Positions 34,500 through 63,400 of a stretch of DNA of 64,000 nt are shown one piece after another; positions within the stretch are counted from its first letter, which is position 1; each line of letters starts with the position of its first letter. The stretch covers positions 3,162,001 through 3,226,000 of the forward strand of contig NZ_CP154631.1 of NCBI RefSeq assembly GCF_039555755.1. Direction: 5' to 3'. The notes beneath the pieces were generated by a model. That model was not told the origin of the DNA and searched no databases. It was given only the letters and a program-made list of their open reading frames with translations. The position numbers and the translations under genes are program-made. Source of the DNA: Pseudomonas sediminis. GTDB taxonomy: Bacteria > Pseudomonadota > Gammaproteobacteria > Pseudomonadales > Pseudomonadaceae.

Positions 34500-34641
34500 T
34501 GATGTCAGCCACTCATTTTCGTTAATTGCCGAAACCTTGATCCCGGAACTCAGGGCCTCTAGGTTGATTTCTCGCTGGGGGCGAAACTTATTTTTCGCTA
34601 TTTCGCGAATTTCTAACCAGTTTTTGCACTAATTTGCGAAA
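34500..34641 (+). repeat. Left end: four TnsB-site-like repeats
   Basis: Copies at about 34516-34534 (TTTTCGTTAATTGCCGAAA), 34568-34586 (TTTCTCGCTGGGGGCGAAA), 34592-34610 and 34622-34641. The shared core is TCGCTAwTTnGCGAAA. Spacings are irregular, as in Tn7 ends. All have the same orientation, inverted relative to those at the right edge. The terminus is probably TGATG at 34500 or TGT at 34503. Confidence 0.72.
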
Positions 34642-34710
34642 TGGCTTTTTAAGGTTTTAAAAGTTTGTGTTCGCAGTAACAGAACGCTACTGGTTTTTGC
34701 GGAGGAGTGG

Positions 34711-36657
34711 CTACTTTATCTCGTTGATATCATTGCGGCGAACAAGGCGAACCGTAGATACATAGCCGGCTTCATTGGAAAGGATAGGGTTAAGTTTTTT
34801 CATTCTTATAAGGTTGGCGGTGTGGCCAATGGGCGCGCCAAGAATTTCGTCCGCTTCGCAGAGACTGACGAATAGGTAGCGGTGCTCTTGGATGCGATGA
34901 AGCTGCTCCACCGGCACTAGGATTTTGCTACCTATACGAATGTACTTCAGAAAGTCACTTTGGATGTATCTCCTGGAAAAAGTCTGAGAAGACATGCCGA
35001 GCTGACCTGAAAAGCACTTGAGTGAGACCGTGCTCTTAAGCAGTGCTTGAGCATTTTTCACTGAGCTGTTAGTGAAATAGCGACCTGTCTTAAGGTTCTT
35101 TGATCGAATGAGGTGACCAAGTCGTTCGAGATGCTTCAAGTCGTGCACGCCGACACCCAGCGTGCGCGCCGTATCTGTGCTTGATGTAGATTCATCTCCC
35201 GAGCGGCTAGAACAACCAGCCGGTTTCCTGCCTGAGTTTGATTTGTAGTGAGCGAGATTTTGTAGCGTGGCCTGAACCTCGTCGGTTACATCATCTCGGC
35301 GATATATAGGTATTAGACCTTCATCAAACCCATGCCCAGAAACGGGAGCTATCCCGAGGTGAAGGAGCTTGGCGGAAAGGGTGGTTCTAGGAAGACTCAG
35401 ATCCGTAGCAAGCTGACCTACGAAAGCGAAGGTCGCTGAAAAATGGTCTACCGCAGCCGCCTGGAGCAGTCTCCTGCCATGAGCATCTTTCCTCGCCGAG
35501 GCGTGCATGAAGCCCTGCGAGTAGGCGCTACGAACTGCATCTGGGTATACGCCCAAGCGGACAGCGACCTCATCAATGGTGAGGTATGTACTGCAATCGT
35601 GGGTTGAGGGGCTCAAGGTGGAAGCATGCTTAGCTTCCGCGCTAGGCGCGGTCGACTGCTCAAGCAGCATGCATAGCTTCTTGGCAGAGTACTTCCATCG
35701 TGCTTCATCCCCCTTCGCGCGTTGAACCAAATCACGGGTCAGGAATGATCTGAGCTTGGTCGGTGAAACCTTCAGGGCATAAACCATCTCGTCCTGATAA
35801 AGCTGAAGTTCTGAGCAATTGCATGTCCCGCTTGCGTCGGCGATATCGGCTTTGGAACGAAGCAAGTGGTGTACTTGGCTTTTGACCCATGAATCCTCCG
35901 AGGCGATCCAAGGAGCGAGAAGTGGTCTCGCCGTAAGGCACGGGTAGAGGCGCTCGGATGCCTGTATCAGCTCCTCGAATACCCCCGCGTCACAATCGGC
36001 GACACGTGCAGCGGCTTCTACAATGCTCTGCGCTTGCTCATGGTGCTGGGTATACCGAAGGGCCTTCAGCGCATAAATGAATCGATCCAAAGCGGGCTGA
36101 TCTTTTCGCCTGAAGATGTTCAGGAGTCGATGGGAACTGTCCGCGTGAGTGGAAATTATCGGCGTAGCGCGTAGATCAAATCCGCACTGACAATGGGGGC
36201 CGGAAAGCTGGGTCCATCGGATACCCCGAGAGCATTCAGGGCACGCCGACACTAGCTTGCAAGCGTGATAGGGGCAGCTTTCTAGCCAGTTGAGATCCAG
36301 TATCGATGGATGGCTGCCTGACTGGATGCAGCCTGGGCAAAAGCTATACGCATCAGTCCGAATAATGGCCGCCGGCACGGCCAATCCCATCACCTCAACG
36401 GGGCTCTCACTTGTGCGTCCGAGCTGTCTGTAGAAACTCGCGAGAAATTGTGTGCTATTGAGGCCTTCATGGCTGGCCAACTGACTAGCAAGTTTTGAGT
36501 GCTGCATTTGCCAAGCGAAGGGTTGGCGTGACTCCTTCGCTCCAAAGGCTCTGGCCATTGCTGAAACTGAGCCAAACCCGTTCGCATGGGCGGTACGCAT
36601 CATTACGCTTCGGGGGCTCTCTTCATGACGGGCGTGGGCGAGGTGGAAAATTTTCAT
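34711..36657 (-). CDS. tniQ: TniQ/TnsD-like target-selection protein
   Basis: A 648-residue protein. The N-terminal TniQ domain contains zinc-finger cysteines and histidines: SFCPGCIQSG, LESCPYHACKLVSACPECSR and PHCQCGFDL. In Tn7, TnsD uses this domain to contact TnsC, and its long C-terminal part recognises the attachment site. Here too the C-terminal 350 residues are long, with several helix-turn-helix-like segments (LTIDEVAVRLGVYPDAVRSA, FSGQLGMSSQTFSRRYIQSD, LCEADEILGAPIGHTANLIR), suggesting sequence-specific DNA binding. Start overlaps the tnsC stop by four bases (ATGA). The likely target, by position, is the nrdB 3' end. Confidence 0.87.
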   Translation of the reverse strand: MKIFHLAHARHEESPRSVMMRTAHANGFGSVSAMARAFGAKESRQPFAWQMQHSKLASQLASHEGLNSTQFLASFYRQLGRTSESPVEVMGLAVPAAIIRTDAYSFCPGCIQSGSHPSILDLNWLESCPYHACKLVSACPECSRGIRWTQLSGPHCQCGFDLRATPIISTHADSSHRLLNIFRRKDQPALDRFIYALKALRYTQHHEQAQSIVEAAARVADCDAGVFEELIQASERLYPCLTARPLLAPWIASEDSWVKSQVHHLLRSKADIADASGTCNCSELQLYQDEMVYALKVSPTKLRSFLTRDLVQRAKGDEARWKYSAKKLCMLLEQSTAPSAEAKHASTLSPSTHDCSTYLTIDEVAVRLGVYPDAVRSAYSQGFMHASARKDAHGRRLLQAAAVDHFSATFAFVGQLATDLSLPRTTLSAKLLHLGIAPVSGHGFDEGLIPIYRRDDVTDEVQATLQNLAHYKSNSGRKPAGCSSRSGDESTSSTDTARTLGVGVHDLKHLERLGHLIRSKNLKTGRYFTNSSVKNAQALLKSTVSLKCFSGQLGMSSQTFSRRYIQSDFLKYIRIGSKILVPVEQLHRIQEHRYLFVSLCEADEILGAPIGHTANLIRMKKLNPILSNEAGYVSTVRLVRRNDINEIK

Positions 36658-37601
36658 TTTACTTTCACCCCGGAGATGATTTTAGTGAGCGACTCGTCGG
36701 TGAGACGAAAGGCATTGCCGCGATACAGAGCGGTGGGGATGACAGAGAGATCTGCGGCGCTGATCAGGTCGATAAGTTCGAAACTACCGTTGTTACGCAG
36801 CAGTGCGAGCCGGAAAGCATCGTTGAGGAGCTGGCGAATGCCATTCATGTTTCCGCCTGTCGTCAGGTACATCGCCTTAAGCGGCTGCTCTGTGTTCAAG
36901 CTAATGCACTTCTCGAATTCACCGATTTTCTTGATCGCTCCACCAAGCGCCCGCAAGGTCTTACTGAATACGGAGGCAGGGTCAAGCGCGGCGTAGGTGA
37001 AGTGATTCATTTGGTGCCGATACGGATACCGTCTGGAAAGCTGGGGATGTGCATTGATGATTTCTTCGCAGCTGGGAATACCAACAATCGCAACCGGAAC
37101 CAATGTTTCGTTCAACAGGGTGCGCACCCAATCGCAGACTTGTTCGCGGGATTTTTCTGCTCCCTTGCGAAGCAGGTTGTCGAACTCGTCAAGCACGATG
37201 AGCTTGGTCTGGCACGTTTGAAGAAGAGTGACCAGGCGCTTGAATAGCGTCGAGCTGTTGCCGGTCACGTTGCTGCATCCCAGCTCCTGCAACATCGACG
37301 TTGTGAGGCTCTTGGTCGTGGCGCCCGCTTGTAGAGAGCAGTAGAACGCTGGAACAATTTCGGTCGTACCTGCCTCCGTGGTGACAATCCGCCTCTCACC
37401 GAACTGGCTCAAGGCTATCCTGCAAGCCGTTGATTTACCCGTCCCTGGTTCTCCAGTCAGGAGCGCTGATGCCGGTTCTCCCCGTGTCGTCGTGGCTTCA
37501 ATGCTGCGGGTGATGCAACTCAGTGCATCGGCGTACTCAGGGTGGTTCACAACAAATTGTGCAAACTGCACCAGCTTGTCTTTGATCTCGTCGTTCATCA
37601 T
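36654..37601 (-). CDS. tnsC: TnsC/TniB-like AAA+ transposition ATPase
   Basis: A 315-residue AAA+ ATPase expected to bridge the target-selection protein and the transposase. Walker A is ALLTGEPGTGKSTACRIALS; Walker B is TKLIVLDEFDNLLRKG; QLSRRYPYRHQMNHFTY carries the arginine region. Size lies between TniB and Tn7 TnsC. Its start overlaps the transposase stop by one base (TAATG), showing tight coupling. Called by synteny and AAA+ similarity. Confidence 0.9.
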   Translation of the reverse strand: MMNDEIKDKLVQFAQFVVNHPEYADALSCITRSIEATTTRGEPASALLTGEPGTGKSTACRIALSQFGERRIVTTEAGTTEIVPAFYCSLQAGATTKSLTTSMLQELGCSNVTGNSSTLFKRLVTLLQTCQTKLIVLDEFDNLLRKGAEKSREQVCDWVRTLLNETLVPVAIVGIPSCEEIINAHPQLSRRYPYRHQMNHFTYAALDPASVFSKTLRALGGAIKKIGEFEKCISLNTEQPLKAMYLTTGGNMNGIRQLLNDAFRLALLRNNGSFELIDLISAADLSVIPTALYRGNAFRLTDESLTKIISGVKVK

Positions 37602-39520
37602 TACTTCCTAGGTAGTTCGAAGGTTTCGTAGTCGTCATCGTCATCAAGCGTGTCGTCAATAAGTTCAAGATCGATTTCCTCTGCAAGTTCGATGTGTTCG
37701 TTGATGTGTTGAACATCATCACTCAAGTTATTAGGGGCGGTAATGTTCTGTGTCTGGTTACTGCGAACATCACTGAGATGGGCGCGTTTACGTCGCGCAT
37801 TGTTCGCTGTGCTCTCGCTCAGGGCCTGCCAGATCCGGCGCAATGTCTGCCGAGCTTCTTCGCCTGTAAAGAGCTTTGCCTCTTCCTTAAGCTTTTTTTG
37901 TACCAGTTCGTGTTCATACATGGACAAGCCAAACTGATAGCTATGCACTCCATCTGCTTGATAGAACGTACCGCTGCTCGGATCTCGCACGTAGACAGTA
38001 CCGAGGTCCGTTCGGTCGTATAGAACTTCGACCTTTTGTGATGTCTTCAAATTACTTTCAATTATGGGTAGCCCCGGACCGGACCATGCCAGGTTCTTGA
38101 ACCGAACTCGACCGCGATTGATAGTGCAGAAGTGAGTCGAAATACAGATAAAACTCAGAGCCTCAGCTGTAAAAACTTTCGGCGGATTCATTTTGTCTAT
38201 GTATCGCTCCCACAGCACGTTTGCTGGCAGATAGCGATGGCCGTGACTCATTTTGTTGTAGTAGTTCAGAATCCAGTCATCGACGATCGCGCGAAACTCA
38301 TCTAGCGTCATTACCGCTTCGCTTTCGGAGTCATAGTCTCCCCGCATTGTTGGATTGGACTTCGTGGTTCCGCTCAACCCATGAATGAGTTGTAGATTCA
38401 AAGTGCGGAAAAAGCTCTCAACGTGGGGTTTTTGGTTAGGTTGGCCCTTCGAGCAGAAGCGAACGGTGAACCCAAGGCGGTTGGCCAAGGCAAGCAGAGA
38501 GGCGTTGTAGAACTCTGGCCCGTTATCTACGACTAGCTCTTCCATGAGTCCGGCGGGGGAGCCATCCTCGCGCACGCGCAACGCATGACTCAGCGCGCTG
38601 GCGGTTTTTTCGAAACAAGGCGGAGTGAACGAAAGGCTCCAGCCAATAACCGAACTGGTTAGTACTTCTAGCAATACGGTTAGGTAGGCACGTCCTATGT
38701 AGATGCCATCCTCACCAACCAGGTGAATGTCTACTTCCTGAGTGTCCGCCTCGACCCTGCTCAATAGCCTTTCAGGGACGTGGATTCCTTTGCCGAAGCC
38801 ATACTTTTTAGCTGCTGCTCTTGAGCCAAGTCGGGCGCGGTCCACGTCGTAGCTGTTGAGTGCTTTTAGCGCTCGGTAAAAAGTCGAAGCGGACGGTACG
38901 TCCAGCTTGCTTTCGGAGTGCAGGTTCAGCTCTTCCAGGTGAGATACGAACAATTTGTAGACCATCAGTGCAGGCGGCTTTGTGCTCTTCAAATAGTGAT
39001 GGCGGATATAGTCCTGCATGACTTCCAGGGACTCTTGGCTCAACCGCTTGGCGCGTAGCTGCTTACCTGTTGCCAGATCGACAAGGGCGAGCGTGCTTTT
39101 TCCGTTTGCCAAGAAGAGCTTTACTTGCTCGTATAGCTTGGTGTACTTCGGCGGTTTTGGATCTCCCAACTCAGCGGCCATCGTCGCTACCGCAGCGAGA
39201 GTCTTTTCGCGTGGGAGCGAACCATGAAACATCTCTATAAGATTCTGGATGTAGTAGGACATGTGGTCGAGCTTGAGACGCTGAGCTGCGTCTAGCCTCA
39301 CCAGTTGTAGGGCCTTTTGTTGATCCATCAGGGCGCTGCTGATTGGTACGAAACGGCCTTGGCGGATGAGCTGATCCACTTCTGTCTCAGGAAGGTACAA
39401 GGCGCCTTTATGGTTCACACCACGCATGAATATGCGTCCGTTGGCCTGATCGATGACCTCGACCAAATCCCCGTTCAGTTCGTACCGTGCCCCGATTTGT
39501 ACAGTGTGCTGGTTCGGCAT
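37601..39520 (-). CDS. tnsB: TnsB/TniA-like DDE transposase
   Basis: A 639-residue Mu-type transposase with an rve catalytic core. The DDE triad is visible as Asp in TQEVDIHLVGEDG (about residue 264), Asp in ELVVDNGPEFYNAS (about 332) and Glu in KPHVESFFRTLN (about 368). A Mu-transposase C-terminal domain follows (MSHGHRYLPANVLWERYID), and the tail is acidic (DLELIDDTLDDDDDYETF), likely a TnsC contact as in other family members. It should bind the end repeats and join 3' ends to target DNA. It lies three bases after tnsA. Confidence 0.92.
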   Translation of the reverse strand: MPNQHTVQIGARYELNGDLVEVIDQANGRIFMRGVNHKGALYLPETEVDQLIRQGRFVPISSALMDQQKALQLVRLDAAQRLKLDHMSYYIQNLIEMFHGSLPREKTLAAVATMAAELGDPKPPKYTKLYEQVKLFLANGKSTLALVDLATGKQLRAKRLSQESLEVMQDYIRHHYLKSTKPPALMVYKLFVSHLEELNLHSESKLDVPSASTFYRALKALNSYDVDRARLGSRAAAKKYGFGKGIHVPERLLSRVEADTQEVDIHLVGEDGIYIGRAYLTVLLEVLTSSVIGWSLSFTPPCFEKTASALSHALRVREDGSPAGLMEELVVDNGPEFYNASLLALANRLGFTVRFCSKGQPNQKPHVESFFRTLNLQLIHGLSGTTKSNPTMRGDYDSESEAVMTLDEFRAIVDDWILNYYNKMSHGHRYLPANVLWERYIDKMNPPKVFTAEALSFICISTHFCTINRGRVRFKNLAWSGPGLPIIESNLKTSQKVEVLYDRTDLGTVYVRDPSSGTFYQADGVHSYQFGLSMYEHELVQKKLKEEAKLFTGEEARQTLRRIWQALSESTANNARRKRAHLSDVRSNQTQNITAPNNLSDDVQHINEHIELAEEIDLELIDDTLDDDDDYETFELPRK

Positions 39521-39523
39521 GCT

Positions 39524-40174
39524 TTACCCCCAGAAAACCCGGCTGCTGGTAGAAATTGGTTTGTCCCAGTTGCAGCGCAACTCTTGTTCAAAAAGCGCCG
39601 CAGACAGCGAGGCTGGAGAGGGAGGTGAGGGCAACGCCAGAAGGTCACCAATTTGCATGGGGGCTTTCAGCATGCTGAGCTGATCGCGCAGATAAGCCCG
39701 CTCAATTGGTGTCACGCCACGGGCCTGCGAGTAGGTCTTGATCAGGTTATTCAGCCGAGGCTGCTGGCGAATTTGGCTATCAGTGAGCAGTTGGAAGCGC
39801 TGCCCGCGCTTATGGAGGAATTCTTCTGCCGCGCGATACAGGGCTAGGTATTTGGGCTTGCGGTAGACGTTGTCTGGTTTGACTTCAACAAACGTGGTCG
39901 AGCCGTCCGAATAGAGAACCTCGAAGTCCGGTACATATGTACGGATCTTGCCCTCGACTTCCAGGACAAGCCGTTCGGGTTGCGGGCGATAGCTGATGAC
40001 GTCCTTATCGTACTCCCAGTGGAAGCATGCATCTGCTTCCAGGCGTACTTCACAGACAATGGATTCGCCGTTCTTTCGAGAGGGGAAAATGGTTGTTTGT
40101 TTGCCAAACTGGCTGCGTTTTATGTTTCTTAGGGGCGAAGCTGTTTCGCCGCCATTAATCCGGAGTTTTTTCAT
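39524..40174 (-). CDS. tnsA: TnsA-like endonuclease
   Basis: A 216-residue protein of the TnsA type, which cuts the 5' ends of Tn7-like elements so that they move by cut-and-paste. The restriction-endonuclease-like core shows Glu in CEVRLEADACFHWEY, Asp in RTYVPDFEVLYSDG and the lysine in TTFVEVKPDNVYRKP, i.e. an E-PD-ExK arrangement. The C-terminal part (TPIERAYLRDQLSMLKAPM) matches the TnsC-interacting tail region. First gene of the four-gene operon. Its presence separates this element from Tn5053/Tn402 types, which lack TnsA. Confidence 0.87.
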   Translation of the reverse strand: MKKLRINGGETASPLRNIKRSQFGKQTTIFPSRKNGESIVCEVRLEADACFHWEYDKDVISYRPQPERLVLEVEGKIRTYVPDFEVLYSDGSTTFVEVKPDNVYRKPKYLALYRAAEEFLHKRGQRFQLLTDSQIRQQPRLNNLIKTYSQARGVTPIERAYLRDQLSMLKAPMQIGDLLALPSPPSPASLSAALFEQELRCNWDKPISTSSRVFWG

Positions 40175-41398: not shown

Positions 41399-41557
41399 CA
41401 GAGTGCAATCGAACGGAGATACACATAACACTGTTTCGGTTGGATGGCGGGACGACCCCTCTGCCTCTGACGCTAGGAGTGATCGTGATGGAGAGTCCGA
41501 GTCGGAACGGCGTTATTCACTGCGCGGTGTGCGACAGTGACACGCGTGTGCTTGGCT

Positions 41558-42172
41558 ATGCATGAACAACTAGATGCGCTGCTGTGTCAGCGATATCCCG
41601 CGATTTTTTCAGTTGATGATTTCAGTGCTCTGCCGGTGTTCGGCTTTGAGTGCAGTGATGGCTGGTTCACGCTAATCGAGGCGGCGTGTGCATTGATTCA
41701 GCATCACGTCGATACTACGGGCGCTCAGCAACTGGTGGCGACGCAGGTGAAGGAAAAATTTGGTGGGCTGCGCTTCTATTACCGACACGGGGGCGATTAC
41801 GCAATACCTGTAATCGGGCTTGTTGAGCTGCTATCGACGCACGTGTGTGAGGTATGTGGCGCCTTGGGCGAGGGCGTGTCGCTCTTTGGTTGGATGCAGA
41901 CGCGTTGCCTTGAGCATGCGAAAGCGATTGTGTATGAGGAACCGCTCATGGCGGTCATTAGGGAAAATCTCGTACTAGCCCCGCCGATGGGCGCACTGCT
42001 GGGGGCCTCGCTGGAATGCTTCGCCCTCGATGACCAAGCTGCTGCCCGCTGGTTGACCAAGCCTGCCCTGGCTTTGGGGAATATCGCGCCATTGGCGCTG
42101 GCTGGATCTCTCGATGGGCAACAGCAAGTACTGACGCTGATCGGCCGCCTGGAGCACGGCATCACGCCGTGA
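41558..42172 (+). CDS. Zinc-finger-like domain fused to a DUF2384 (MbcA/ParS-type) domain
   Basis: A 204-residue two-domain protein. The N-terminal 125 residues contain FGFECSDGWFTLIEAACALI, TQVKEKFGGLRFYYRHGGDY and STHVCEVCGALGEGV, a pattern known from phage- and island-borne proteins of unknown role. The C-terminal part, LGASLECFALDDQAAARWLT then KPALALGNIAPLALAGSLDG and VLTLIGRLEHG, matches the toxin-binding domain of MbcA/ParS/Xre antitoxins (partners of RES toxins). No RES toxin gene follows. The start is uncertain: ATG at 41558 or GTG at 41537. Confidence 0.7.
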   Translation: MHEQLDALLCQRYPAIFSVDDFSALPVFGFECSDGWFTLIEAACALIQHHVDTTGAQQLVATQVKEKFGGLRFYYRHGGDYAIPVIGLVELLSTHVCEVCGALGEGVSLFGWMQTRCLEHAKAIVYEEPLMAVIRENLVLAPPMGALLGASLECFALDDQAAARWLTKPALALGNIAPLALAGSLDGQQQVLTLIGRLEHGITP

Positions 42173-42176
42173 TGCT

Positions 42177-50997: not shown

Positions 50998-51329
50998 GCT
51001 GCTTATCGTCCTTAGGCTTATTTAACCGATTCCACGCCTTGCTTACCGGCAGATACTATGCGACTCCTCCGGAGTAGTGCAGCAAATAGTGGGAGCTGTG
51101 GCGTACGCAGGGGCAGCCGAAATACATTATTGAAGCACTTTGCCTTTACGTCCATGGTCTGCCGAACGATGATGATGGCCATCGCATTGGCGGCATGTAG
51201 CGTTACCAGGGATGGCTTTTCCTTCGATTCTGCGAGGGATCAATGTCACCTAGTGTCTCTCTCGTTGCTACCCAAGCTTGCTTTTGATCGGCCTTGATTA
51301 GCTGTGTCCAGTTAACGAAGAGAGAGAAG
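50998..51329. other. Divergent control region of GHKL-nuclease and RT-nitrilase
   Basis: About 330 bases shared by two divergent start codons. It contains the small dyad ACTCC-TCC-GGAGT near 51063. A short plus-strand frame at 51058-51297 has no ribosome binding site or domain. It is long enough for a non-coding RNA as well as promoters, but nothing specific is visible. Confidence 0.45.
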
Positions 51330-54300: not shown

Positions 54301-55271
54301 AACGTATTGCGGTACAGCGCGCTTTGTATGGGGAAAGGAGTAAGACGCCAATCTATGTGCTTCCCACTAGTGACAATGGCCTGCTTGTTGATCGTCCCTT
54401 GCGCGTAGCAATTGTCCAAACCCTTCGCCCGAAGATGGATGACTTCGATACCAAGGATCCTACGCATTGGACTCCGGCAATGCTGTCTCAGCATCGACGC
54501 CACCTCGCTGAGGTTTGCCGTCTGGCTCACGCTAAGTTGCGTGCATGGGCATCAGCAAGGCCGCTGCAAGAGGGAGAAAGCGAGGCTCCCACCATAGATG
54601 TAATCCTTTTCCCCGAGCTGGCAGTGCATCCTGAGCATGTGTTCTTTCTGCGACGTCTCTCTGACAAGCTCAAGGCAAATATCTTTGCGGGGCTAACCTT
54701 CATGCACTCTGATAAGTGCGGAGGTCCGATCAATCAGGGCTTGTGGTTGATACGTACGGATGCACCGGATCATGGCCGCAGTATCCAGTATGTGTGGCAA
54801 GGGAAGCTCCATCCAATGAAGCTTGAACAGCAAATGGGAGTCAAGGGGTATCGACCGCACGTGACCCTAGTGGAGTTGCCGGTCGGTACGACGTCACCGA
54901 CACGTCTCGCCGCGGCAATCTGCTATGACGCTACTGATCTTGATTTAGTTGCGGACCTCAGGGATCGCTCAGACGTGTTCCTGGTTGCGGCCCTGAATCA
55001 AGATGTGCAGACCTTTGACAACATGGTTGCGGCGTTGCATTTCCATATGTACCAGCCTGTGGTGCTTGCCAATTCCGGAGAGTTTGGGGGCTCCACTGCT
55101 CAAGTACCACTTCCGAAACATGATCGTCTGGTTGCGCATACCCACGGTAATAACCAGGTCGCAGTGAGCGTATTCGAGCTTGATCCCGCTCCCTTCAAGT
55201 CGACTAAACCGGTGAGGTCACCAAAACAGTTAAAGACTGCGCCGGCAGGCTACAAGGGAAGGCCTTTTTGA
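51330..55271 (+). CDS. drt1: RT-nitrilase fusion, defence-associated reverse transcriptase (DRT type 1/UG1)
   Basis: A 1313-residue protein with a reverse transcriptase domain at residues of about 60-480 and a C-terminal nitrilase domain at about 1020-1300. The RT palm has motif A in FVVSLDLKAFYDRVDRR (Asp247), the motif B-like LGLPQGLVASGFLANAYL and motif C in CRYVDDIRVVVE (Asp368, Asp369). The nitrilase shows the Glu-Lys-Cys triad: Glu1096 in VILFPELAVHPEH, Lys1159 or Lys1164 in WQGKLHPMKLEQQ and Cys1198 in AAAICYDATDLD. The roughly 540 residues between are helical and unassigned. This architecture defines the UG1/DRT1 anti-phage system. The ATG at 51330 follows GAAGAGAGAGAAG. The symbol follows the published family. 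Confidence 0.93.
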   Translation: MSIINVNYQTLLPQGKTLQDIVVLAQAWKKSQGFIRRHNSYADVLELDSSTINLERQLKEWSQAIGDPGFLPEDLKLVPAPKNGKWEFRSNPGLTIEELLDTPFNDLDSLFNEWRPCADQDAGEPPASPGLQKLRPLAHISIRDQSLATAVMMCLAESIETAQGNPDEIDAMKARDCGLASYGNRLHCRWSETGGTQARAHFSWGNSQTYRKYFQDYRAFLSRPRQVCAEFSPRLPKGRELFVVSLDLKAFYDRVDRRALLAELQRLEAEYRQDFHLQAESGADQDFWDKTARIMDWRWRGGDIVHAGLFNETESKELELGLPQGLVASGFLANAYLIGFDRAVDKASKEAHEVSDGIKILDYCRYVDDIRVVVEAPSYASLLEPIKTFILEQLKEHCARLGTSKEISLSEAKCSVTPYRSMSAQNNVSTLMSVLGAELSGTFDLESLAQAAGGLEGLLWISDQIEGSQEPPRSRLRLATIAAPATDVRDDTVKRFVATRLAELMRQRLAMTDVSAPDDTGESLGERVTNGMALAHEFESTARKLIKCWAENPALVLLLRCGLDLFPHPRLLAPVLEALNSKLYDVTLSWLKPEQLREIRAAEYVAADLLRAGVVETGYRDMEDYPEAIDIQGYREELGVFARRVVIERADSPWYLLQQAFLYLASIGDCGLAVNAITEPSLGAAYNKLRRAMLFEPTASKDLLEILPSALVTQQMHPNSRRFGVWLSEGLRATQDEVLVQEIVNTVALERPDLLLEAIGKRGGRPPKWREFVPQSLVEINRISSSKQKDGSALPSRQLLRVMQDPFNVFGQENGLLMLAKALLSVPRIEERLSAGLSPVDIILKCADWPSIHALPEGAGFLEVSLTEGEGLENPLYERPEWVSKEGAWLYGLGRVLRSALTGEFDFTSRRFLVTEEVGRYRGIRSSWYKRRFGMLNSVNGLMDEPAPVSLWLSGFLSTLLQWPGIEFKANDAAPVSAVRTPGELLALLEKRIAVQRALYGERSKTPIYVLPTSDNGLLVDRPLRVAIVQTLRPKMDDFDTKDPTHWTPAMLSQHRRHLAEVCRLAHAKLRAWASARPLQEGESEAPTIDVILFPELAVHPEHVFFLRRLSDKLKANIFAGLTFMHSDKCGGPINQGLWLIRTDAPDHGRSIQYVWQGKLHPMKLEQQMGVKGYRPHVTLVELPVGTTSPTRLAAAICYDATDLDLVADLRDRSDVFLVAALNQDVQTFDNMVAALHFHMYQPVVLANSGEFGGSTAQVPLPKHDRLVAHTHGNNQVAVSVFELDPAPFKSTKPVRSPKQLKTAPAGYKGRPF

Positions 55272-55356: not shown

Positions 55357-56067
55357 TCAAACCGCATCCCCAAACACCGCCCGCTCCAACACCTGATGTT
55401 GCCGCTGCCAATCAGGCATATGGCTGGCCACCAGTGCCCAGAATGCTTTGGTGTGGTTCTTTTCCACCGTGTGACATAGCTCATGGACGATGACATAGTC
55501 CTGCACGCTGGTAGGTAGTTCCATAACCCGAGGATGAAATTCCAGGGTGTTGTTCGCATCGCAGCTGGCCCAGCGGCTTTGGAAGTGGCGGATTCGAGCA
55601 CCATTTGCCTGAAGCCCGGTTTCTCGCTGCCAGTGACGGACTCGTACCAACAACTTCTCATGAGCACGATCCCGGTAGAACCGCTCAAGCAATGGCATCA
55701 GCACGTCCGGCAGGATGCTCGCCGCATCTGGGCTATCCACGATGAAGCGTGATGCTGTGAAGGTGAGTCGGGGTTTCAGGATGTCCGGTGTATGCCGTAC
55801 CTCGGTGAAGTACGTACGCCCGGCATAGCGTAGGCGACTGCCCGTCACGATGGGTTCGCTGGCCAGGGGCTGATTCATCTGTGCCAGCTTTTCACGAATC
55901 CAGCGTGCACGGCGCAGCACCAAAGCTTCTTGCTCAGGCTCATCCACTAGCGGCCCACGCAAAAGCACGGGACGACCCCGTTCCACGGTCACGTAGTGGC
56001 GCTTGAGTTTACTATCGAGCTGGAAGTACCACTCGATAGCCGTTTGGCCGTAATTCAAGACTGGCAT
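55357..56067 (-). CDS. YgjP/M48-type metallopeptidase of the RM locus
   Basis: A 236-residue predicted zinc metallopeptidase of the YgjP (DUF45) group. The active-site helix is VIVHELCHTVEKNHTKAFWA, giving HExxH plus a third His. SRWASCDANNTLEFHPRVME precedes it as in family members. It is the last gene of the type I restriction locus, 13 bases after hsdR, an association seen widely. Its role in restriction control is not established; limited proteolysis of a subunit is one idea. Confidence 0.87.
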   Translation of the reverse strand: MPVLNYGQTAIEWYFQLDSKLKRHYVTVERGRPVLLRGPLVDEPEQEALVLRRARWIREKLAQMNQPLASEPIVTGSRLRYAGRTYFTEVRHTPDILKPRLTFTASRFIVDSPDAASILPDVLMPLLERFYRDRAHEKLLVRVRHWQRETGLQANGARIRHFQSRWASCDANNTLEFHPRVMELPTSVQDYVIVHELCHTVEKNHTKAFWALVASHMPDWQRQHQVLERAVFGDAV

Positions 56068-56080
56068 GGGTAACGCCGCG

Positions 56081-59000
56081 TTAGTTTTTCAGCAAAATAT
56101 CGAAGATTCGCTTGGCGTGATCACGCGCCACTGAACGCTCCCAGCCCGCCAGAGGCATCAATACCCCGCGCAGGTGGTCTCTGAAATCAGGGTGCGTATC
56201 CGGCATTTTCTTCCAGTTTTCAGTCGCCAGCGCACGGTTCAGCATTTCATCTTCAAACAGCTTGGTCGTTGCCACTCTTGCCGTATCCTCTGCCAGTAAC
56301 GCGGCAAGGTAGTGGTAAACCGCTGAGTGCGCAGGCTTATTAAAACCGGTGTTGTCCTTGTTTTGAATCCGCTGGCTGAACAGCTCCAGTTGCTCCAGGA
56401 ATTTGGCCTGGGTAATGCGCCCCGCCTTTTCCTCTTCCAGCAGCTTTTCCAGCTCCTCGGCGATCTTGTCGAAGAATGCTGGATCCTTGTCCTTACCAGT
56501 GACGATGGTCTGCTTCAGCTGGTTTTTCATTACCAGGGCGCGACTACCGGGGCTCGCCAGTTTCTTCAACCGCTCCATATCACTGGCATCCAGAATAGAC
56601 ACCTCATGACCCAGCAGGCTCTTCGCCGGGCTGGCCGCGATGTACTCATCCAGCAGCTGTTGCAGCAGCGCGGACTCCAGTTTGGTGATGCGCTCCTTGT
56701 GGGTACTGCCCGGCAGTTTGTCGCGCAGCATCAGGCGAATCTCACCTAGCAGGGTGAAATAGGGCTTGAACGGTACGCCGCGTACATCCGGCAGGATGAT
56801 GTCCACTGAGCGGTTGAATTGTTTCACCAGGTCGAGGAATTCTTCGACCATGTCCAACCGGGTGGCAGGATCAAGGAAGCGCTCGGCGTCGTCTTTGTAG
56901 GTCTCGCGCTGTGCTACAGGGTCATGCTTTTTCGGCAGCAACTTGAGGATGCGGTCGAGTGTGGCTTGCAGTTTGGGCAGTTCGGTTTCGACACCTTCCC
57001 AGACCTGCGAAGGTTTCACGTTTCCACCATAAATCTTCAGCGCATGGTCAAGGTGATCGACCACCCCATGGTAATCCACGATGTAACCGGCATTTTTGCC
57101 GGGCAAGGTGCGGTTCACCCGTGCAATAGCCTGCAACAGGGTGTGTTCCTTAAGCGGCTTGTCGAGGTACATGATGCCAACAATCGGGGCATCCCACCCC
57201 GTCAGCAGCATGTCTGAAACGATGATCAGTCCGACGTTGTTCGCCTGCGGCTTACCATCCAGCCCCTTAGTCTCTTCACCGTAGGGCAGGGGAAATAGCT
57301 TGCTGACAAAGTTACCAATCTGCTCGGATGGCATGGCCACGGGGGGCTTTCCGGCTTTCACCTCGGCCTTGACCCGCTCCTCGATGCTGCGAATTTTATC
57401 GGCCTCAATCGCGTACGCTGCCGCCTCCTCCATGGTAGAAGCGCCCGTACGGGAAGAGGTGATGCTGGCCAGAGAAATAATCACCTTGCTGTCAAAAGTG
57501 GGCAGCCCTTTGTTCGCCCGTTCGACCATGATCGCATCGAGCAGATCCTTGTAACGTACCGCCATATCGCGGCCATCGCACACCAGCATGGCCTTCAAAC
57601 CTTTGGCCTTTACGCTACCGAGAAAATGCTCGACCAGATGCTCGGCGACCTGCTCCATGCGGTCACTGGCCTGACGCCAGCGGCGCAGCAGCTCACGCTT
57701 CAGCTCGTGTTGACGCACTTCACTCTGGTCAGAAAACTGCTCTTTGAACGCGGCATCCAGATCAGCATTGGCCGACAGCGCTACCCAGGCGTCCTGGTAT
57801 TTGATCGGCAGGGTTGCGCCATCCGCTACCGCTTCATGCAGGCGATATTCGTCGATGTACTCGCCACCGCCAAACTCGCCCAGCGTGTGTTTGTCCTCTT
57901 GCAGCAAAGGTGTACCGGTAAAGGCAATAAACCTTGCGTTGGGCAAGCTGGCGCGCATAAAGGCTGCGAGGAAGTCGTACTGGCTACGGTGAGCTTCATC
58001 GACCAGCACATAGAAATTTGGCTTGGTGCTCAGCACTCGGAAGTGCACCTTTTCCCGGCTGATTTCTTCCCACTTGGGCTTAACCGGAACACCGCTCTCA
58101 TCCACCTCCAGGTGGCGGACATTTCGCTCATGCACGATGAAGAAGTCCTTCTCCTCACGAATCCGCCGGTGGCGGGTCGCTTGCAGGGCATCATCTTCTT
58201 CGTCAGGCGTCTCGGCAGCCTGCTCAGTAGGCTGGTCGTTTTCCTGGAACTTCTGCACGGTGCTGGTGAACACGCTGCCGTAGTCGTTAGACAGCATCTT
58301 CAGCAGGCCATCAACCGACACGGCCTGAATGGCATTGATGCCCACCGCATGGAAGGTGTCGAAGATCTGCTTATCGAGGTCTTTACGGTCGGTCAGCACC
58401 AACACGGTTGGGTTGTTTAACCCTGTGCTATCTGCCCGCAGCATGCGCGCGAGCAGAGCCATGGTCAGGGACTTGCCGCTACCCTGGGTGTGCCAAACGA
58501 CGCCGCCTGAAGGTTTCGGGGCGCACAGGCGATCCACCGTTTTGCGCACGGCACGCCATTGCTGGTAGCGCGGAAGTTTCTTCACGGTCTTGCCGTCGCG
58601 GGTTTCGAACAGCACAAAATGGGTGATCAGTTGCAGGAAGCGGCTCGGCTCAAACAATGCCCACAGCACATTTTCCTGCTCACTGGGAGCATCGCCTAAC
58701 AGGGCAGCAACAGCGGCAGTCTCCAGCGCCTGCATCCGATAGCGGGCGTAATAGGCAGGTTTGGTGAGGATCGCGCCATACAAACCTTCACGCCGATTCA
58801 ACCCAACACAGACCTGGTTGAACACAAACTGGGTTGGGAAGGTGCTTTGGTAGCCATCCAACTGGCCCAGGGCTTCATCCACGCGGTGATGACTGGCTTT
58901 GCATTCGATGATGGCTAGCGGCAAGCCATTCACAAACAACAGCAGATCAGGACGGAAAACATCCCCATCCGCATTGCGCCCCACGTACTGATCGACCACA

Positions 59001-59365
59001 TGGAAGTCGTTGTTGCTGGCATCGCTGGCGTCGAAGAAGCGCACGCTGCGCGGCTTACCCTCGACGTCCTTCACCTGGATATCCGAACGATGCACCACCT
59101 GTTCCCAGAACGTCTTGTTGGCCGGCAACAGCTCATCATTCACGCGTTTACGTAGCTCAATCAGCGCTGCACTGATACCGCCAGGTGCAGTCGCGAGCCA
59201 TGGATTCAGGATCAGCAGCCGAGCTTGCAACACATCGTCCAGTACCGGAGCCAGGTGACGATGTTCAACCTCCACTTGGCTACCGGGCAGATGGGTGTAG
59301 CCCAGCTTGATCAGCCAATTGATAGCGGGCAGCTCGACCCCGACATTCTCCGGTGACTGGCTCAT
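56081..59365 (-). CDS. hsdR: Type I restriction endonuclease R subunit
   Basis: A 1094-residue HsdR subunit, the motor-nuclease of a type I restriction enzyme. The N-terminal nuclease site shows Asp in FRPDLLLFVNGLP and Glu/Lys in LAIIECKASHHR. The helicase core has Walker A in VVWHTQGSGKSLTMALLARM (about residue 295), the DEAH box in YVLVDEAHRSQYDFLAAF (about 455) and motif VI in QAIARVNRTLPGKNAG. Length and order are normal. It lies four bases after the OST-HTH gene stop. Confidence 0.95.
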   Translation of the reverse strand: MSQSPENVGVELPAINWLIKLGYTHLPGSQVEVEHRHLAPVLDDVLQARLLILNPWLATAPGGISAALIELRKRVNDELLPANKTFWEQVVHRSDIQVKDVEGKPRSVRFFDASDASNNDFHVVDQYVGRNADGDVFRPDLLLFVNGLPLAIIECKASHHRVDEALGQLDGYQSTFPTQFVFNQVCVGLNRREGLYGAILTKPAYYARYRMQALETAAVAALLGDAPSEQENVLWALFEPSRFLQLITHFVLFETRDGKTVKKLPRYQQWRAVRKTVDRLCAPKPSGGVVWHTQGSGKSLTMALLARMLRADSTGLNNPTVLVLTDRKDLDKQIFDTFHAVGINAIQAVSVDGLLKMLSNDYGSVFTSTVQKFQENDQPTEQAAETPDEEDDALQATRHRRIREEKDFFIVHERNVRHLEVDESGVPVKPKWEEISREKVHFRVLSTKPNFYVLVDEAHRSQYDFLAAFMRASLPNARFIAFTGTPLLQEDKHTLGEFGGGEYIDEYRLHEAVADGATLPIKYQDAWVALSANADLDAAFKEQFSDQSEVRQHELKRELLRRWRQASDRMEQVAEHLVEHFLGSVKAKGLKAMLVCDGRDMAVRYKDLLDAIMVERANKGLPTFDSKVIISLASITSSRTGASTMEEAAAYAIEADKIRSIEERVKAEVKAGKPPVAMPSEQIGNFVSKLFPLPYGEETKGLDGKPQANNVGLIIVSDMLLTGWDAPIVGIMYLDKPLKEHTLLQAIARVNRTLPGKNAGYIVDYHGVVDHLDHALKIYGGNVKPSQVWEGVETELPKLQATLDRILKLLPKKHDPVAQRETYKDDAERFLDPATRLDMVEEFLDLVKQFNRSVDIILPDVRGVPFKPYFTLLGEIRLMLRDKLPGSTHKERITKLESALLQQLLDEYIAASPAKSLLGHEVSILDASDMERLKKLASPGSRALVMKNQLKQTIVTGKDKDPAFFDKIAEELEKLLEEEKAGRITQAKFLEQLELFSQRIQNKDNTGFNKPAHSAVYHYLAALLAEDTARVATTKLFEDEMLNRALATENWKKMPDTHPDFRDHLRGVLMPLAGWERSVARDHAKRIFDILLKN

Positions 59366-59368
59366 TGC

Positions 59369-60253
59369 TTACTCCTGTTCCTTGGAGGTTTCCCTCGGGC
59401 GACTGCGATACCAAACCACCGTGGGGCCATTTTCGGCTTGGCTTTGTTTACGAATTTCAAACTGCTGCGACGCATGGATGACATGACGCCAACTGCCGCA
59501 GCCATAGCGCTTGGGTGTCTGCTCGGGGTAGGTCTTGGCAATCCAATGAATGGCTTCGAAAAGTGGTGTCCACCCAGCCTGAGCCAGCTTAGTTTCCGCT
59601 TCACGTAAGCAGGCAGTTATACCGCTGCCAGCCCAGTGGATGGTGCCATCGACCCAGATGCCGTGCACAACAGCATCCTCGTACTCTTTGGTTTGCATAA
59701 ACGAAACCATTAGCTTCCGAGCCTCATCCATGGATATGGCCCAGTCGCGCAGCGTCAGGTAATGGCCGTCGATGGTTTCGTTACTTTCATCGAGATAAGA
59801 CTCGGCGGCTATACAGCCATCGACACTCCAAAGGTCGAAGCGCTGAAGAAAGTGGTGCACCAACTCGTTTCGCAGGTCGACCAGCTCCTTGAGTGCAGCC
59901 TTGGTCTCGGCGTAGCGCTCCTCGGGTAACTCCATCTGGCATCGGAAGCTGACCCATATCTGATCAATAGGCTCAGCCTGCTCTGGCTCATCAGCTAAAT
60001 CAGGCAGCTTCAGATAGCTCTCGGTCAGCATCCCTACCAAGGTGCCCAGTGTCTTCTTATGGGCACAGGCAACTTTCTCTTCGCGAATCGCCTGAAGCCG
60101 TTCCGGAGGGCCACTCAACTCACTATGGGCAACCATCGCTTTGAGCAGCCGCTCGTACTGCTGCAACTGCAACATGCAGCGTCCGAGCTTGCGCTGCACG
60201 ATTCGCTGAAGGTCAGGTACCGGATCTGAGGAGAGGGGAGTGATTTCGTCCAT
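59369..60253 (-). CDS. OST-HTH (LOTUS) domain protein within the hsd operon
   Basis: A 294-residue protein placed between hsdS and hsdR. The C-terminal 65 residues form an OST-HTH/LOTUS domain (AGWTPLFEAIHWIAKTYPEQ, YGCGSWRHVIHASQQFEIRK), a fold linked to RNA binding. The N-terminal 225 residues are helical, with a conserved-looking LVDLRNELVHHFLQRFDLWS. It has no methylase or nuclease motif. Intervening genes are common in type I loci; this one could regulate restriction through RNA binding or partner recognition, which is inference. Confidence 0.8.
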   Translation of the reverse strand: MDEITPLSSDPVPDLQRIVQRKLGRCMLQLQQYERLLKAMVAHSELSGPPERLQAIREEKVACAHKKTLGTLVGMLTESYLKLPDLADEPEQAEPIDQIWVSFRCQMELPEERYAETKAALKELVDLRNELVHHFLQRFDLWSVDGCIAAESYLDESNETIDGHYLTLRDWAISMDEARKLMVSFMQTKEYEDAVVHGIWVDGTIHWAGSGITACLREAETKLAQAGWTPLFEAIHWIAKTYPEQTPKRYGCGSWRHVIHASQQFEIRKQSQAENGPTVVWYRSRPRETSKEQE

Positions 60254-60263
60254 GAATAAAAAC

Positions 60264-61517
60264 TCAGGCTATGCCGGTGGGGCTATCGAGCTTGACCCGC
60301 CACTCGCCGGTTAGCAGCTTTTGCATCAGTCCGCGTTTGAGTGAGGAATAATTTTCTCGCTTGGTCGATAGCAACCTAAGCTTTCCATCAACTGACGCCA
60401 AGATGGTTGCAATACGTGCTTGCTCCTCATCTGACGGCAATGGAAAGGAAAACTCACGAATGCGTGTTAGGGCCAGTTTTGGCTGGGCATTTGAGGTCGC
60501 CTCCCGTGCTATCAAATCCTGAATAGCGTCGGAGCAAAGGCAATAGAACAAGTAATCACGATTGATTTTGATGTCTGTGAGCTTGTCGGCGTTCTCTGTC
60601 AAGTTCGCCCCATCGAGTTCTTCTGGAACAATGCCCACAAGGCCCAACGTTCCAGCCACCGAAATAAAGATGTCGTCTTTGGAAATCGTGTATCGGGCAA
60701 TGGTGGGCCGCACGTGAGAGGGAACGTAAAGGATGCCTGCGGTATCGACCCCCCCCATAAACATATCGGTCACGCGAATATACGGGTGACCGGTGTTTTC
60801 TTCGGTCAGTGTCTCGCCCTTGGGCAGTCGCTTGCCGCCTTTTACCTCACAAACCTCTCCGACCGTAGTAACCACCCAAGCCGAGGGAATCTCCCCCAGC
60901 TTACTGCCCTTAAACTCGGTATGCGGTGTCCAGCCACCATTGGCATCTTGCGTGCCCACACCCCGGCTGAACAGGGTTTGCATTAGACCCTGCTTGAGGG
61001 CTTGAGTCGCTTCAATCTGGCGGGCAATTACATTCAGCTTATCGTCAACAGCGGTGAGGATCGCGGCGATTTTTTGTTGTTCAGGAAGCGGGGGAAATAC
61101 AACTATTTCTTTGTGTGCAACATTTCTATTGAGTGTTGGGACGCCTGTCCCTGTCTTGAATTTTTCAAGGCCAATTTCACTTAATTTGTAAAACGCGAAC
61201 TTCGGGAGATTCCCTTTGAAGTTTTTAACATACAACGTAGTGTTGAGCGGCCAATACTTATCTTCAGTGTAGAAGAGCTTCCCGATTGTTCCTGAGCGAC
61301 CAGTGATGACACCGGGGCCTTCCGTCACGTTGATGTTGTGAAATCCGAGCAAGCCATTAGATCCAAATATAGGTATGTCGCCCTGAGTGCGATCTTGCAC
61401 CGGCAGGTCTACACCCCGTTGAAGTTCTAGAAAGCTCAGCAACTCGCCAGTTTTCCAGCCAGACGGAGCGGGAGTCTCTGATTCTGGTGCGCGTTTTAAA
61501 GGCCAGGCCTGATTCAT
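60264..61517 (-). CDS. hsdS: Type I restriction-modification specificity subunit
   Basis: A 417-residue HsdS subunit that recognises a bipartite DNA target for the complex. It has two target recognition domains, each ended by a conserved helix (PPLPEQQKIAAILTAVDDKL and LPSDEEQARIATILASVDGK) that forms the spacer. Its ATG overlaps the hsdM stop (ATGA), and 10 bases separate its stop from the OST-HTH gene. The recognised sequence cannot be predicted by eye. Confidence 0.94.
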   Translation of the reverse strand: MNQAWPLKRAPESETPAPSGWKTGELLSFLELQRGVDLPVQDRTQGDIPIFGSNGLLGFHNINVTEGPGVITGRSGTIGKLFYTEDKYWPLNTTLYVKNFKGNLPKFAFYKLSEIGLEKFKTGTGVPTLNRNVAHKEIVVFPPLPEQQKIAAILTAVDDKLNVIARQIEATQALKQGLMQTLFSRGVGTQDANGGWTPHTEFKGSKLGEIPSAWVVTTVGEVCEVKGGKRLPKGETLTEENTGHPYIRVTDMFMGGVDTAGILYVPSHVRPTIARYTISKDDIFISVAGTLGLVGIVPEELDGANLTENADKLTDIKINRDYLFYCLCSDAIQDLIAREATSNAQPKLALTRIREFSFPLPSDEEQARIATILASVDGKLRLLSTKRENYSSLKRGLMQKLLTGEWRVKLDSPTGIA

Positions 61518-63127
61518 GTCGACTCAGCCTCCAACATTCCTAACTCCACCAGATAGCCATTCAGCTGTGTATCAATCCGAGCCTCCTCCTCGGCCAATGA
61601 GGCTAATTGAGCCAAGGTTGCCGCCAAATCGACTGCTGCTTCGGCCTCACCGTTGTCGATATAGCGGGAAATATTAAGATTGCCGTCGTTGCTGCGGATC
61701 TCGTCCAGCGTCACGACCCTGCAATAGTTCTCGACTTCTGCTTGCTTCGCAAATGCCGCTTTGTGGGCGCTTAAGATTCGTGTGATGTCTTCAGTACGAA
61801 GACTGTTCTGTGCCTTACCCTCAAGGTAGTCCCGGCTGGCATCGATGATGATGACCTTGCCTTTGAGGGTGGTGGGTTTCTGCTTGTTGAGGATGAGCAC
61901 GCAAGCCGGAATGCCGGTGTTGTAGAACAGAGCCGAGGGTAGGCCAACTATGGCTTCAATCAGATCACCCGGCTGATCGCCGCTGGCCGCATTCGTACCG
62001 AACAGCAGTCCCTCGCGAATCTTGCCTTCCTCACCACTGCGAAACAGCACACCGTGCGGCAAGATAATGCCCATACGACCATCAGCCTTGAGGCTGGCCA
62101 ACATATGCTGAGCAAAGGCGAGATCGGCATAGCTCCGTGGCGGGACACCATAGACCAAGCGACCATAAGGATCACTGACCTGCTTGTAGTTGGGTGCCTT
62201 GGGCTTCTTGCCACTGTCTTGCTCGTTCTCGTTACTCAGCTCCAACGGTGCCCACCAGGATTTTGCCGAGAACGGCGGATTGGCAATCACCCGGTCGAAG
62301 GTCTTCAGGTAATCTCCGTCAAGGTGCTTTGGCTCGACCAAGGTGTCGCCGCGCTCAATGGCTGCATGCATGTTGTGCAGGTAAAGATTGAGCTTGGCTA
62401 TGGCCCAGGTGCCCAGGTTCTTCTCCTGCCCGTACAGCAGCACATTGGGTTTACCCATCAGGGTGCCATTGGGCAAACCGGATACATGGTGGGCGCTTTC
62501 CACCAGCATGCCACCACTGCCGCAGGTAGGGTCATACACGCTGTGACCGGGTTGCGGGTCGATCAGCTCAACCACCAACTGCACCACGGCCTTGGGCGTA
62601 TAGAACTCACCGCCTTTCTTACCGGCATCATCGGCAAACTGCTTGATCAGATACTCATAGGCATCGCCCAGCATGTCGGCCTTGTACAGATCGTCATTGC
62701 CCAGCTTGTACTGGTTAAAGTGGCGCAGCAGACGCTGCAAGGTGGCATCCGCCAGCACCCGCTTATCGCCGTACTGCGTAGCGGTCAGTACATGTTGCAG
62801 TTCAGGGTTGTTGGCCTCGATGGTCGCGAAAGCCTTATCAAGGGCCTCGCCGATATTCTCGGTGCGCGAGATCAGATCGAACCAACGGGCGCTGATGGGG
62901 AACTTACCCCATTTGTCCTCGATCTCTTCCTGAGCATCGCTGTAGCTCAGGCTTTCGTCCTTCATCAGCTTGGTGACACGTTCGTCGAACACATCGTTGT
63001 AACGCTTGAGGAAGAGCAGGCCGAAGATGTAGTTCTTGAAGTCGGAGGAGTCGATGGAACCGCGCAGAATGTTGGCGGACTCCCAGAGCCAGGACTCCAA
63101 CGTTTCGAGTGACAGCTTGTCAGCCAT
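61514..63127 (-). CDS. hsdM: Type I restriction-modification methylase subunit
   Basis: A 537-residue N6-adenine methyltransferase subunit. The SAM site motif I is VYDPTCGSGGMLVESAHHVS (about residue 200) and the catalytic NPPF is in FDRVIANPPFSAKSWW (about 281). The N-terminal DKLSLETLESWLWESANILR is typical HsdM. I start at 63127 (MADKLSLETL); the frame extends to 63235 with non-conserved sequence. First gene of the hsdM-hsdS-OST-hsdR-peptidase operon. It lies only about 150 bases from the right-hand transposon repeats. Confidence 0.95.
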   Translation of the reverse strand: MADKLSLETLESWLWESANILRGSIDSSDFKNYIFGLLFLKRYNDVFDERVTKLMKDESLSYSDAQEEIEDKWGKFPISARWFDLISRTENIGEALDKAFATIEANNPELQHVLTATQYGDKRVLADATLQRLLRHFNQYKLGNDDLYKADMLGDAYEYLIKQFADDAGKKGGEFYTPKAVVQLVVELIDPQPGHSVYDPTCGSGGMLVESAHHVSGLPNGTLMGKPNVLLYGQEKNLGTWAIAKLNLYLHNMHAAIERGDTLVEPKHLDGDYLKTFDRVIANPPFSAKSWWAPLELSNENEQDSGKKPKAPNYKQVSDPYGRLVYGVPPRSYADLAFAQHMLASLKADGRMGIILPHGVLFRSGEEGKIREGLLFGTNAASGDQPGDLIEAIVGLPSALFYNTGIPACVLILNKQKPTTLKGKVIIIDASRDYLEGKAQNSLRTEDITRILSAHKAAFAKQAEVENYCRVVTLDEIRSNDGNLNISRYIDNGEAEAAVDLAATLAQLASLAEEEARIDTQLNGYLVELGMLEAEST

Positions 63128-63282
63128 GGGTAAATCAATCCCTATACAAAGCACGAGGCCCAGCACCTGGCGATTGCTGCCATGACGCCTGGGCACATCA
63201 GAAAAAGTGGGCTCGATTGTACAAGTCGACGCCATTTGGAGTCCGAAAAATCATCTCGCTCCACTGCTCCTGTCAAATGAGC

Positions 63283-63400
63283 ATTGCCGTTTAGAGAATA
63301 AAAAAAGGCTGCCCAGTGGCAGCCCTTTTTTGGTGCGTCCGTTTCACGTTTAGCGAGAAACTTTCGCGGTCTAGCGATTTTGAGCGTCAGCGAGCCATCA
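63283..63400 (-). repeat. Right end: three TnsB-site-like repeats
   Basis: Read on the minus strand the copies are at 63381-63362 (AAAATCGCTAGACCGCGAAA), 63360-63342 (TTTCTCGCTAAACGTGAAA) and 63302-63283 (TTTATTCTCTAAACGGCAAT). The middle one matches the second left-end repeat closely (TTTCTCGCT...CGAAA/GTGAAA). The outer edge reads TGATG from 63400, the same five bases as the left edge at 34500, and coincides with the nrdB stop codon. Confidence 0.7.
63299..63332. terminator. Bidirectional rho-independent terminator
   Basis: GGCTGCC-CAGT-GGCAGCC with an A run on the left and a T run on the right. It sits inside the right-end repeat array between hsdM and nrdB, and may have replaced the nrdB terminator lost to insertion. 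Confidence 0.9.

Follow-up and report, generated by a model that had tools for sequence, protein, structure and literature searches.

Tn7 inserts about 20 bp past the stop codon of glmS, and its selector TnsD binds at +23 to +58 from the centre of the duplication (PMC2918618). Some type I-F3 elements have ends other than TGT, and some carry a parE-targeting TnsD (PMC11406308). Tn6022, which is Tn7-like and homes to a conserved gene, uses TniQ and TnsF and inserts within comM (PMC10293859).

The window, a stretch of 64,000 nucleotides of Pseudomonas sediminis DNA, carries behind nrdB an element of 28,877 bp (34510-63386). The element combines TnsA, TnsB and TnsC with a TniQ-family selector and a 5-bp target duplication, as Tn7 does (PMC2918618; PMC11406308), and it likewise lies shortly past the stop codon of a conserved gene that its right end faces (glmS there, nrdB here). 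Together with inverted arrays at its ends and a fixed orientation beside the gene, these features mark it as Tn7-like. It is not Tn7 proper, which homes to glmS (attTn7) through TnsD and has TnsE: here the target is nrdB, there is one TniQ-family gene, and no TnsE match was found among the 17 element open reading frames scanned. Insertion falls 9-11 nt past the stop codon rather than about 20 bp, the ends begin 5'-C rather than TGT, and the cargo of the window element sits between the right end and tnsA. The closest solved relatives of its TnsA, TnsB, TnsC and TniQ domain belong to CRISPR-associated transposons; unlike those, the window element has one long TniQ, and neither a CRISPR array nor a cas gene was found in it by a repeat scan and in the PADLOC matches listed for nine cargo proteins. 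While Tn6022 interrupts comM, nrdB remains whole here.

We thus describe a real Tn7-like element at an attachment site, a safe site behind an essential gene, that is apparently undescribed. No description of nrdB as a Tn7-like attachment site was found in the literature searched (supplementary tables may catalogue it), and none of the matches listed there joins Tn7-like elements or TniQ with nrdB or ribonucleotide reductase. Words beginning with "nrd" or "ribonucleo" are absent from the main texts of PMC10293859, PMC8649781 and PMC11406308. The suggestion of the earlier note that nrdB is perhaps a new attachment site fits this literature, within its limits. New as far as checked are the repeated use of nrdB for attachment and the partial association of this site with the C-terminal half of TniQ.

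Boundaries, ends and transposition genes

Comparison with an empty site, a check proposed beforehand, was possible in G064, a genome of the same species that has no TniQ match and an undisturbed site after nrdB. The window flanks joined with a single TCAGC reproduce the G064 sequence as predicted, with 88 nt identical across the junction; beyond these, the first changes are a single base some 35 nt upstream of the nrdB stop codon and those around the terminator. The 5-base duplication that had been reported missing is present, and this weakness of the earlier reading is removed. The duplication had been overlooked because TGATG, read as an outer end shared by both edges, is target DNA. TGATG is contained in the empty site (TGATGGCTCGCTGACATCA) and is ruled out as a terminus.

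34505..34509, no strand: left copy of the 5-bp target-site duplication TCAGC, identical to 63387-63391; one copy in the G064 empty site
34510..34641, plus strand: left end (L), distal to nrdB, with terminal CACTCATT followed by four TnsB-like sites (pattern scan and eye)
34517-34534, 34568-34586, 34593-34610 and 34624-34641: left-end TnsB-like sites, three found by pattern scan and that at 34568 by eye
63342..63386, minus strand: right end (R), proximal to nrdB, with terminal CGCTCAAA followed by two close TnsB-like sites
63362-63379 and 63342-63360: right-end TnsB-like sites, the former found by pattern scan, the latter by eye and weakly by weight matrix
63387..63391, no strand: right copy of the target-site duplication TCAGC (sequence match and G064 empty site)
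63398..64000, minus strand: 3' part of nrdB (a 453-aa open frame in the genome)

A sixth base also agrees in the window duplication (GTCAGC), and with this ambiguity the exact frame is set by relatives whose duplications are of exactly 5 bp. The DNA similarity between the P. composti element and the window stops at 34508, two bases outside the left end. A frame giving TGT ends was ruled out, as the duplications in G298, G069 and G279 would then no longer be exact at 5 bp. The proposed 28.9-kb Tn7-like unit behind nrdB stands with its edges corrected to 34510 and 63386; instead of touching the nrdB stop codon, its right end is 11 nt away from it. The element has a GC content of 0.54, against 0.613 for the left flank and 0.582 for the nrdB part. 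Positions 30001-34504 of the left flank, of low GC (0.539) and with a DUF3800 gene, differ from G064 beyond the terminator and so may contain another insert.

The arrays of a roughly 19-base inverted repeat noticed at both edges correspond to putative TnsB sites of about 18-19 bp, four in the left end and two in the right, in inverted orientation. A pattern composed after inspection of the ends matched 12 times in the window, against 1.85 (sd 1.31) expected; seven of the 12 matches fall in the two ends and represent four distinct sites, of which three match on both strands. Among the window matches to a weight matrix derived from the G298 and G069 ends, the top three lie in the left end and a right-end site ranks only 13th, a result that is not independent because the G298 left end is nearly identical to that of the window. 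The putative right-end sites of the window are weaker than the left-end ones. By the convention that the right end is the one upstream of the tns genes, the right end of the window element faces nrdB, and its two close sites with four spread sites on the left agree with the published correlation (PMC11406308). Tn7-like ends are typically TGT/ACA, some I-F3 and I-D elements differing according to the same source; here all 12 termini of the six resolved elements begin 5'-C, and TGT/ACA termini were not found.

An unrestricted end scan ranked the true ends first for G279 and G271, and not among the best four for G298. For G128, G172 and G373, whose elements lie away from nrdB, a scan for a duplication plus inverted repeats gave no convincing ends. 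The earlier note held that different termini in related elements would speak against the unit. Distant elements at nrdB do have other end sequences; the unit is not refuted by this, since each resolved distant element has its own matched ends and duplication.

The four tns/tniQ genes first noticed proved to be those of TnsA, TnsB, TnsC and TniQ, in one row on the minus strand and transcribed away from nrdB.

39524..40174, minus strand: tnsA, 216-aa endonuclease; CEVRLE, VPDF, EVK (Pfam, solved-structure match, motifs)
37601..39520, minus strand: tnsB, 639-aa DDE transposase; VEADTQEVD, VVDNGPE, HVESFF (Pfam, solved-structure match, motifs)
36654..37601, minus strand: tnsC, 315-aa AAA+ ATPase of the TniB family; GEPGTGKS, IVLDE (Pfam, solved-structure match, motifs)
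34711..36657, minus strand: tniQ, 648 aa, likely target selector (Pfam, alignments, half-protein profiles)

The motifs expected of an active endonuclease, DDE transposase and AAA+ ATPase are present, and we take them to hold the catalytic residues. Comparison of TnsB with solved proteins gave PseTnsAB (E 7.4e-35; the Pse element is presumably type I-F3), Tn6677 TnsB (IF3A, 3e-30) and Tn7 TnsB (1.7e-5), and the Pfam match of Mu-transpos_C is slightly below the cut-off. The nearest solved relative of TnsC in sequence comparison is VchTnsC, and that of TnsA is PseTnsAB. In TniQ the TniQ domain occupies residues 12-135 (PF06527, E 7.8e-10), and the best solved TniQ-domain match, from a CRISPR-associated transposon, spans residues 90-174 only. 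The C-terminal half has a MerR_1 match and an HTH_17 match slightly below the cut-off. When six segments of TniQ were compared by profile in a search for tandem HTH modules, the best pair reached 86% probability and the second 60%.

Recurrence and terminators behind nrdB

A tns operon lies downstream of nrdB, in the same orientation and about 0.1-34 kb away, in nine genomes (window, G298, G069, G279, G271, G750, G698, G801 and G934). The search for tniQ homologues beside nrdB suggested in the earlier note thus gave eight further genomes, five of them with a resolved 5-bp duplication. Since the genome sets overlap and the TniQ profile favours relatives of the query, the counts are not frequencies: at genus level a TniQ match with E of 1e-20 or below was found in 21 of 398 genomes, the window's own included, and the nrdB comparison covered the matches that reach this value. 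Four of the 21 are at nrdB (window, G069, G279 and G271); in 13, the 64 kb on the expected side contain no nrdB (G022, G088, G103, G128, G172, G178, G199, G214, G277, G340, G373, G384 and G391); four, on contigs ending too near, stand outside the nrdB count (G085, G151, G167 and G343). The P. composti genome G298 came from a separate scan, in which one of 39 matching stretches encoded a relative. In 390 genomes of the order the two non-self matches are G750 and G698, from one genus of another family, and both lie at nrdB, as do G801 and G934 among the three non-self matches in 369 genomes of the class; the third, G1108, gave no nrdB match. At phylum level (398 genomes) the TniQ search matched the window's own genome alone. 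A tblastn search of plasmids with TniQ gave seven records, none covering 80% of the query and all below 60% identity, and 24 stretches of viral contigs matched a pattern, none encoding a relative.

Both ends and a 5-bp duplication were resolved in six of the nine loci, 9-11 nt past the nrdB stop codon. Their hosts belong to the genus of the window, to P. composti and to one genus of another family in the order; G801 and G934, whose ends were not resolved, belong to other families of the class. The duplications (in nrdB sense), the distance of the insertion from the stop codon and the element length are as follows.

window: GCTGA, 11 nt, 28.9 kb
G298: GCCAC, 10 nt, 30.6 kb
G069: GCCAC, 10 nt
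G279: TAGCA, 10 nt, 39.7 kb
G271: CGCTC, 10 nt, 44.1 kb
G750: TGCGC, 9 nt, 28.0 kb

The ends of the G069 element lie on two contigs linked only by the duplication and a window-like terminator, and it was left out of the lengths. NrdB of G750 is one codon shorter after a shared Trp than the other five, so that the distance from the shared Trp codon is 12 nt, compared with 16-17 nt in the others. The far ends of the G698, G801 and G934 elements were not found. From nrdB to the start of the tns operon there are about 23.2 kb in the window, 25.0 kb in G298 and some 34 kb in both G279 and G271, with 0.14-19 kb for G934, G698, G750 and G801. The G934 locus (L113, G934:C9), with tnsA about 0.14 kb after the nrdB stop codon, has the classical Tn7 layout; the distance is at least 9 kb in the other eight. 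In G801 tnsB and tnsC look broken, and in G069 tnsB (L050, 797-2769) is divided, probably by a frameshift, between open frames of 428 and 227 aa.

Two terminators frame the window element.

63293..63330, minus strand: intrinsic terminator a short way inside the right end, oriented with nrdB; its hairpin (-19.2 kcal/mol) lies 67-97 nt past the stop codon of nrdB
34419..34453, minus strand: native nrdB terminator, displaced by the element; nearly the same hairpin lies shortly after nrdB in G064

The idea of a displaced terminator is supported by the near-identical hairpin right after nrdB in the empty site. Hairpins beyond the far end were seen by eye in all six resolved elements (in the window also through the empty site). 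We take them for the native nrdB terminators, and each insertion therefore falls between the gene and its terminator. An intrinsic terminator lies inside the near end, at most 330 nt from the nrdB stop codon, in 7 of 9 loci compared with 4 of 108 random windows, a contrast that is overstated because random windows of the same loci include coding DNA; with the settings used none was found in G069 or G801. The internal terminator might shield nrdB or the genes of the element.

In G271 the near-end terminator (L088, about 1799-1837) is nearly the same as the hairpin past the far end (L090, L096), with paired stem changes, as if the element had acquired an nrdB terminator from a host. Of the two nrdB copies in G279, L053 (G279:C1) and L056 (G279:C5), the element lies behind the C1 copy, whose last codons are by eye closer to those of other occupied sites than are the last codons of the C5 copy; G340 also has two copies. 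About 0.7 kb downstream of nrdB in G022 (L057, G022:C59, 9061-9381), an incomplete second copy of the 3' part of the gene contains an internal stop and is perhaps the trace of another element at the nrdB site.

Target choice and alternative explanations

The window very likely contains a complete, probably mobile Tn7-like transposon whose TniQ is a TnsD-like selector reading the 3' coding end of nrdB. The C-terminal half of the long TniQ would recognise this conserved end, at a position that can be predicted by analogy with TnsD at attTn7 (+23 to +58).

63412..63447, minus strand: stretch of nrdB predicted to be bound by TniQ

The N-terminal TniQ domain would recruit TnsC, and TnsA and TnsB would excise the element and join it 9-11 nt past the nrdB stop codon, with the right end facing nrdB and a 5-bp duplication. 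The insertion separates nrdB from its terminator, and the element brings another just inside its right end.

The hairpin seen by eye shortly past the far end in the six resolved loci might instead mean that the site is chosen by something other than the nrdB coding sequence, such as the terminator after the gene, nrdB being incidental. We consider this unlikely, as nrdB recurs in hosts whose terminator sequences differ, the insertions keep a narrow spacing from the nrdB stop codon, and the TnsD of Tn7 reads glmS coding sequence (PMC2918618). A shared position could also come from descent and not from targeting, if the element were a fossil, immobilised long ago and inherited; P. composti does have a related element at nrdB with much cargo in common. 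The empty site of G064, which is of the same species and has no TniQ match, makes this explanation very unlikely, as do the duplications, spacing and outer flanks that vary between hosts, and the intact genes and motifs. Moreover, some cargo proteins are 98-99.8% identical between the two species while the HsdS and metallo-beta-lactamase-fold proteins are 44-55% identical.

Guidance by RNA would be in keeping with the closest solved relatives of TnsA, TnsB and TnsC, which are proteins of CRISPR-associated transposons. It is nonetheless extremely improbable: TniQ is long, with DNA-binding-like C-terminal matches, the only close direct repeat of at least 20 nt in the element is one imperfect 23-bp pair, and the sole CRISPR-linked label among the PADLOC matches listed for nine cargo proteins is a weak reverse-transcriptase model (42 bits) that falls on the Drt1a protein (1378 bits).

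The preferred reading, in which TniQ selects nrdB, can be compared with profiles of the two TniQ halves (residues 1-260 and 360-648), built from 22 sequences including the window, G298, G069 and G279 and scored on full-length frames of 26 genomes besides the window's. With the C-terminal profile, the nrdB proteins outside the training set scored 144.6 (G750), 117.4 (G698), 83.5 (G934), 67.2 (G801) and 48.6 bits (G271). The 13 proteins elsewhere reached 84.6 (G128), 77.2 (G088), 68.8 (G178), 56.5 (G373) and 55.9 bits (G172), the others less; four unjudged proteins scored up to 64.0 (G085) and G1108 scored 59.0 bits. Only G750 and G698 stand clear, since the scores of G934, G801 and G271 are within the range of the proteins elsewhere. 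The N-terminal profile gives the opposite ranking, its four smallest scores among the 26 falling on G934 (46.2), G750 (48.1), G698 (48.2) and G801 (56.5). Of the five nrdB proteins outside the training set, these four score higher with the C-terminal than with the N-terminal profile, compared with 0 of 18 proteins away from, or unplaced relative to, nrdB; the profiles that retrieved the four distant nrdB proteins were ones in which a match could rest on the C-terminal half, which favours such cases. In G271 the C-terminal score (48.6) is below the N-terminal one (91.3), as in proteins elsewhere, and this element may owe its arrival at nrdB to a different C-terminal half. Agreement between the C-terminal half of TniQ and the nrdB location is thus only partial.

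TnsB of G750, at nrdB, is 26.7% identical to that of the window, and those of G172 and G373, elsewhere, are 27.9% and 32.4% identical. The half-profile and TnsB data fit a targeting half with a history of inheritance or exchange separate from that of the core. A wider proposal is conceivable, and we offer it with more doubt than conviction: the nrdB site would be shared by distant gammaproteobacterial Tn7-like transposons, the nrdB-reading C-terminal half of TniQ would be a module portable between TnsABC cores, and defence cargo would be swapped in elements with a replacement nrdB terminator and 5'-C ends. Natural pairs of TniQ and target could reveal which residues read which DNA. Target choice by TniQ is directly testable, and it could yield a new tool for site-specific insertion.

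Cargo of the elements

Much of the window cargo is, by its sequence matches, antiphage defence.

41537..42172, plus strand: protein with an Xre/MbcA/ParS antitoxin C-terminal domain
43507..45693, minus strand: ankyrin-repeat protein
46172..48528, plus strand: pair of a NucS-C-like protein and a metallo-beta-lactamase-fold protein; weak matches, candidate defence families
49054..50997, minus strand: HATPase_c_3 protein, with a sub-cut-off match to BbrUII/HgiDII restriction enzymes
51294..55271, plus strand: Drt1a defence reverse transcriptase (DRT type 1), 1325 aa (PDLC03745, 1378 bits)
55357..63235, minus strand: type I restriction-modification cargo block
61514-63235, 60264-61517 and 56081-59365, minus strand: hsdM, hsdS and hsdR
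59369-60253, minus strand: OST-HTH/LOTUS protein, between hsdS and hsdR
55357-56067, minus strand: YgjP-like metallopeptidase

Most genes tested are 84-99.8% identical in protein between the window and P. composti, with hsdS at 44% and the metallo-beta-lactamase-fold protein at 55%. The G279 cargo includes type III restriction-modification and a BrxHI/DISARM-like helicase, and that of G750 includes a type I restriction system whose hsdS and hsdR flank SIR2 and HerA genes. The cargo of the window, G279 and G750 marks the region behind nrdB as a collecting place for exchangeable antiphage systems. The LOTUS gene of the window (59369-60253) and the SIR2 and HerA genes of G750 (L084, 10621-13447) suggest an exchangeable slot inside the type I restriction operon.
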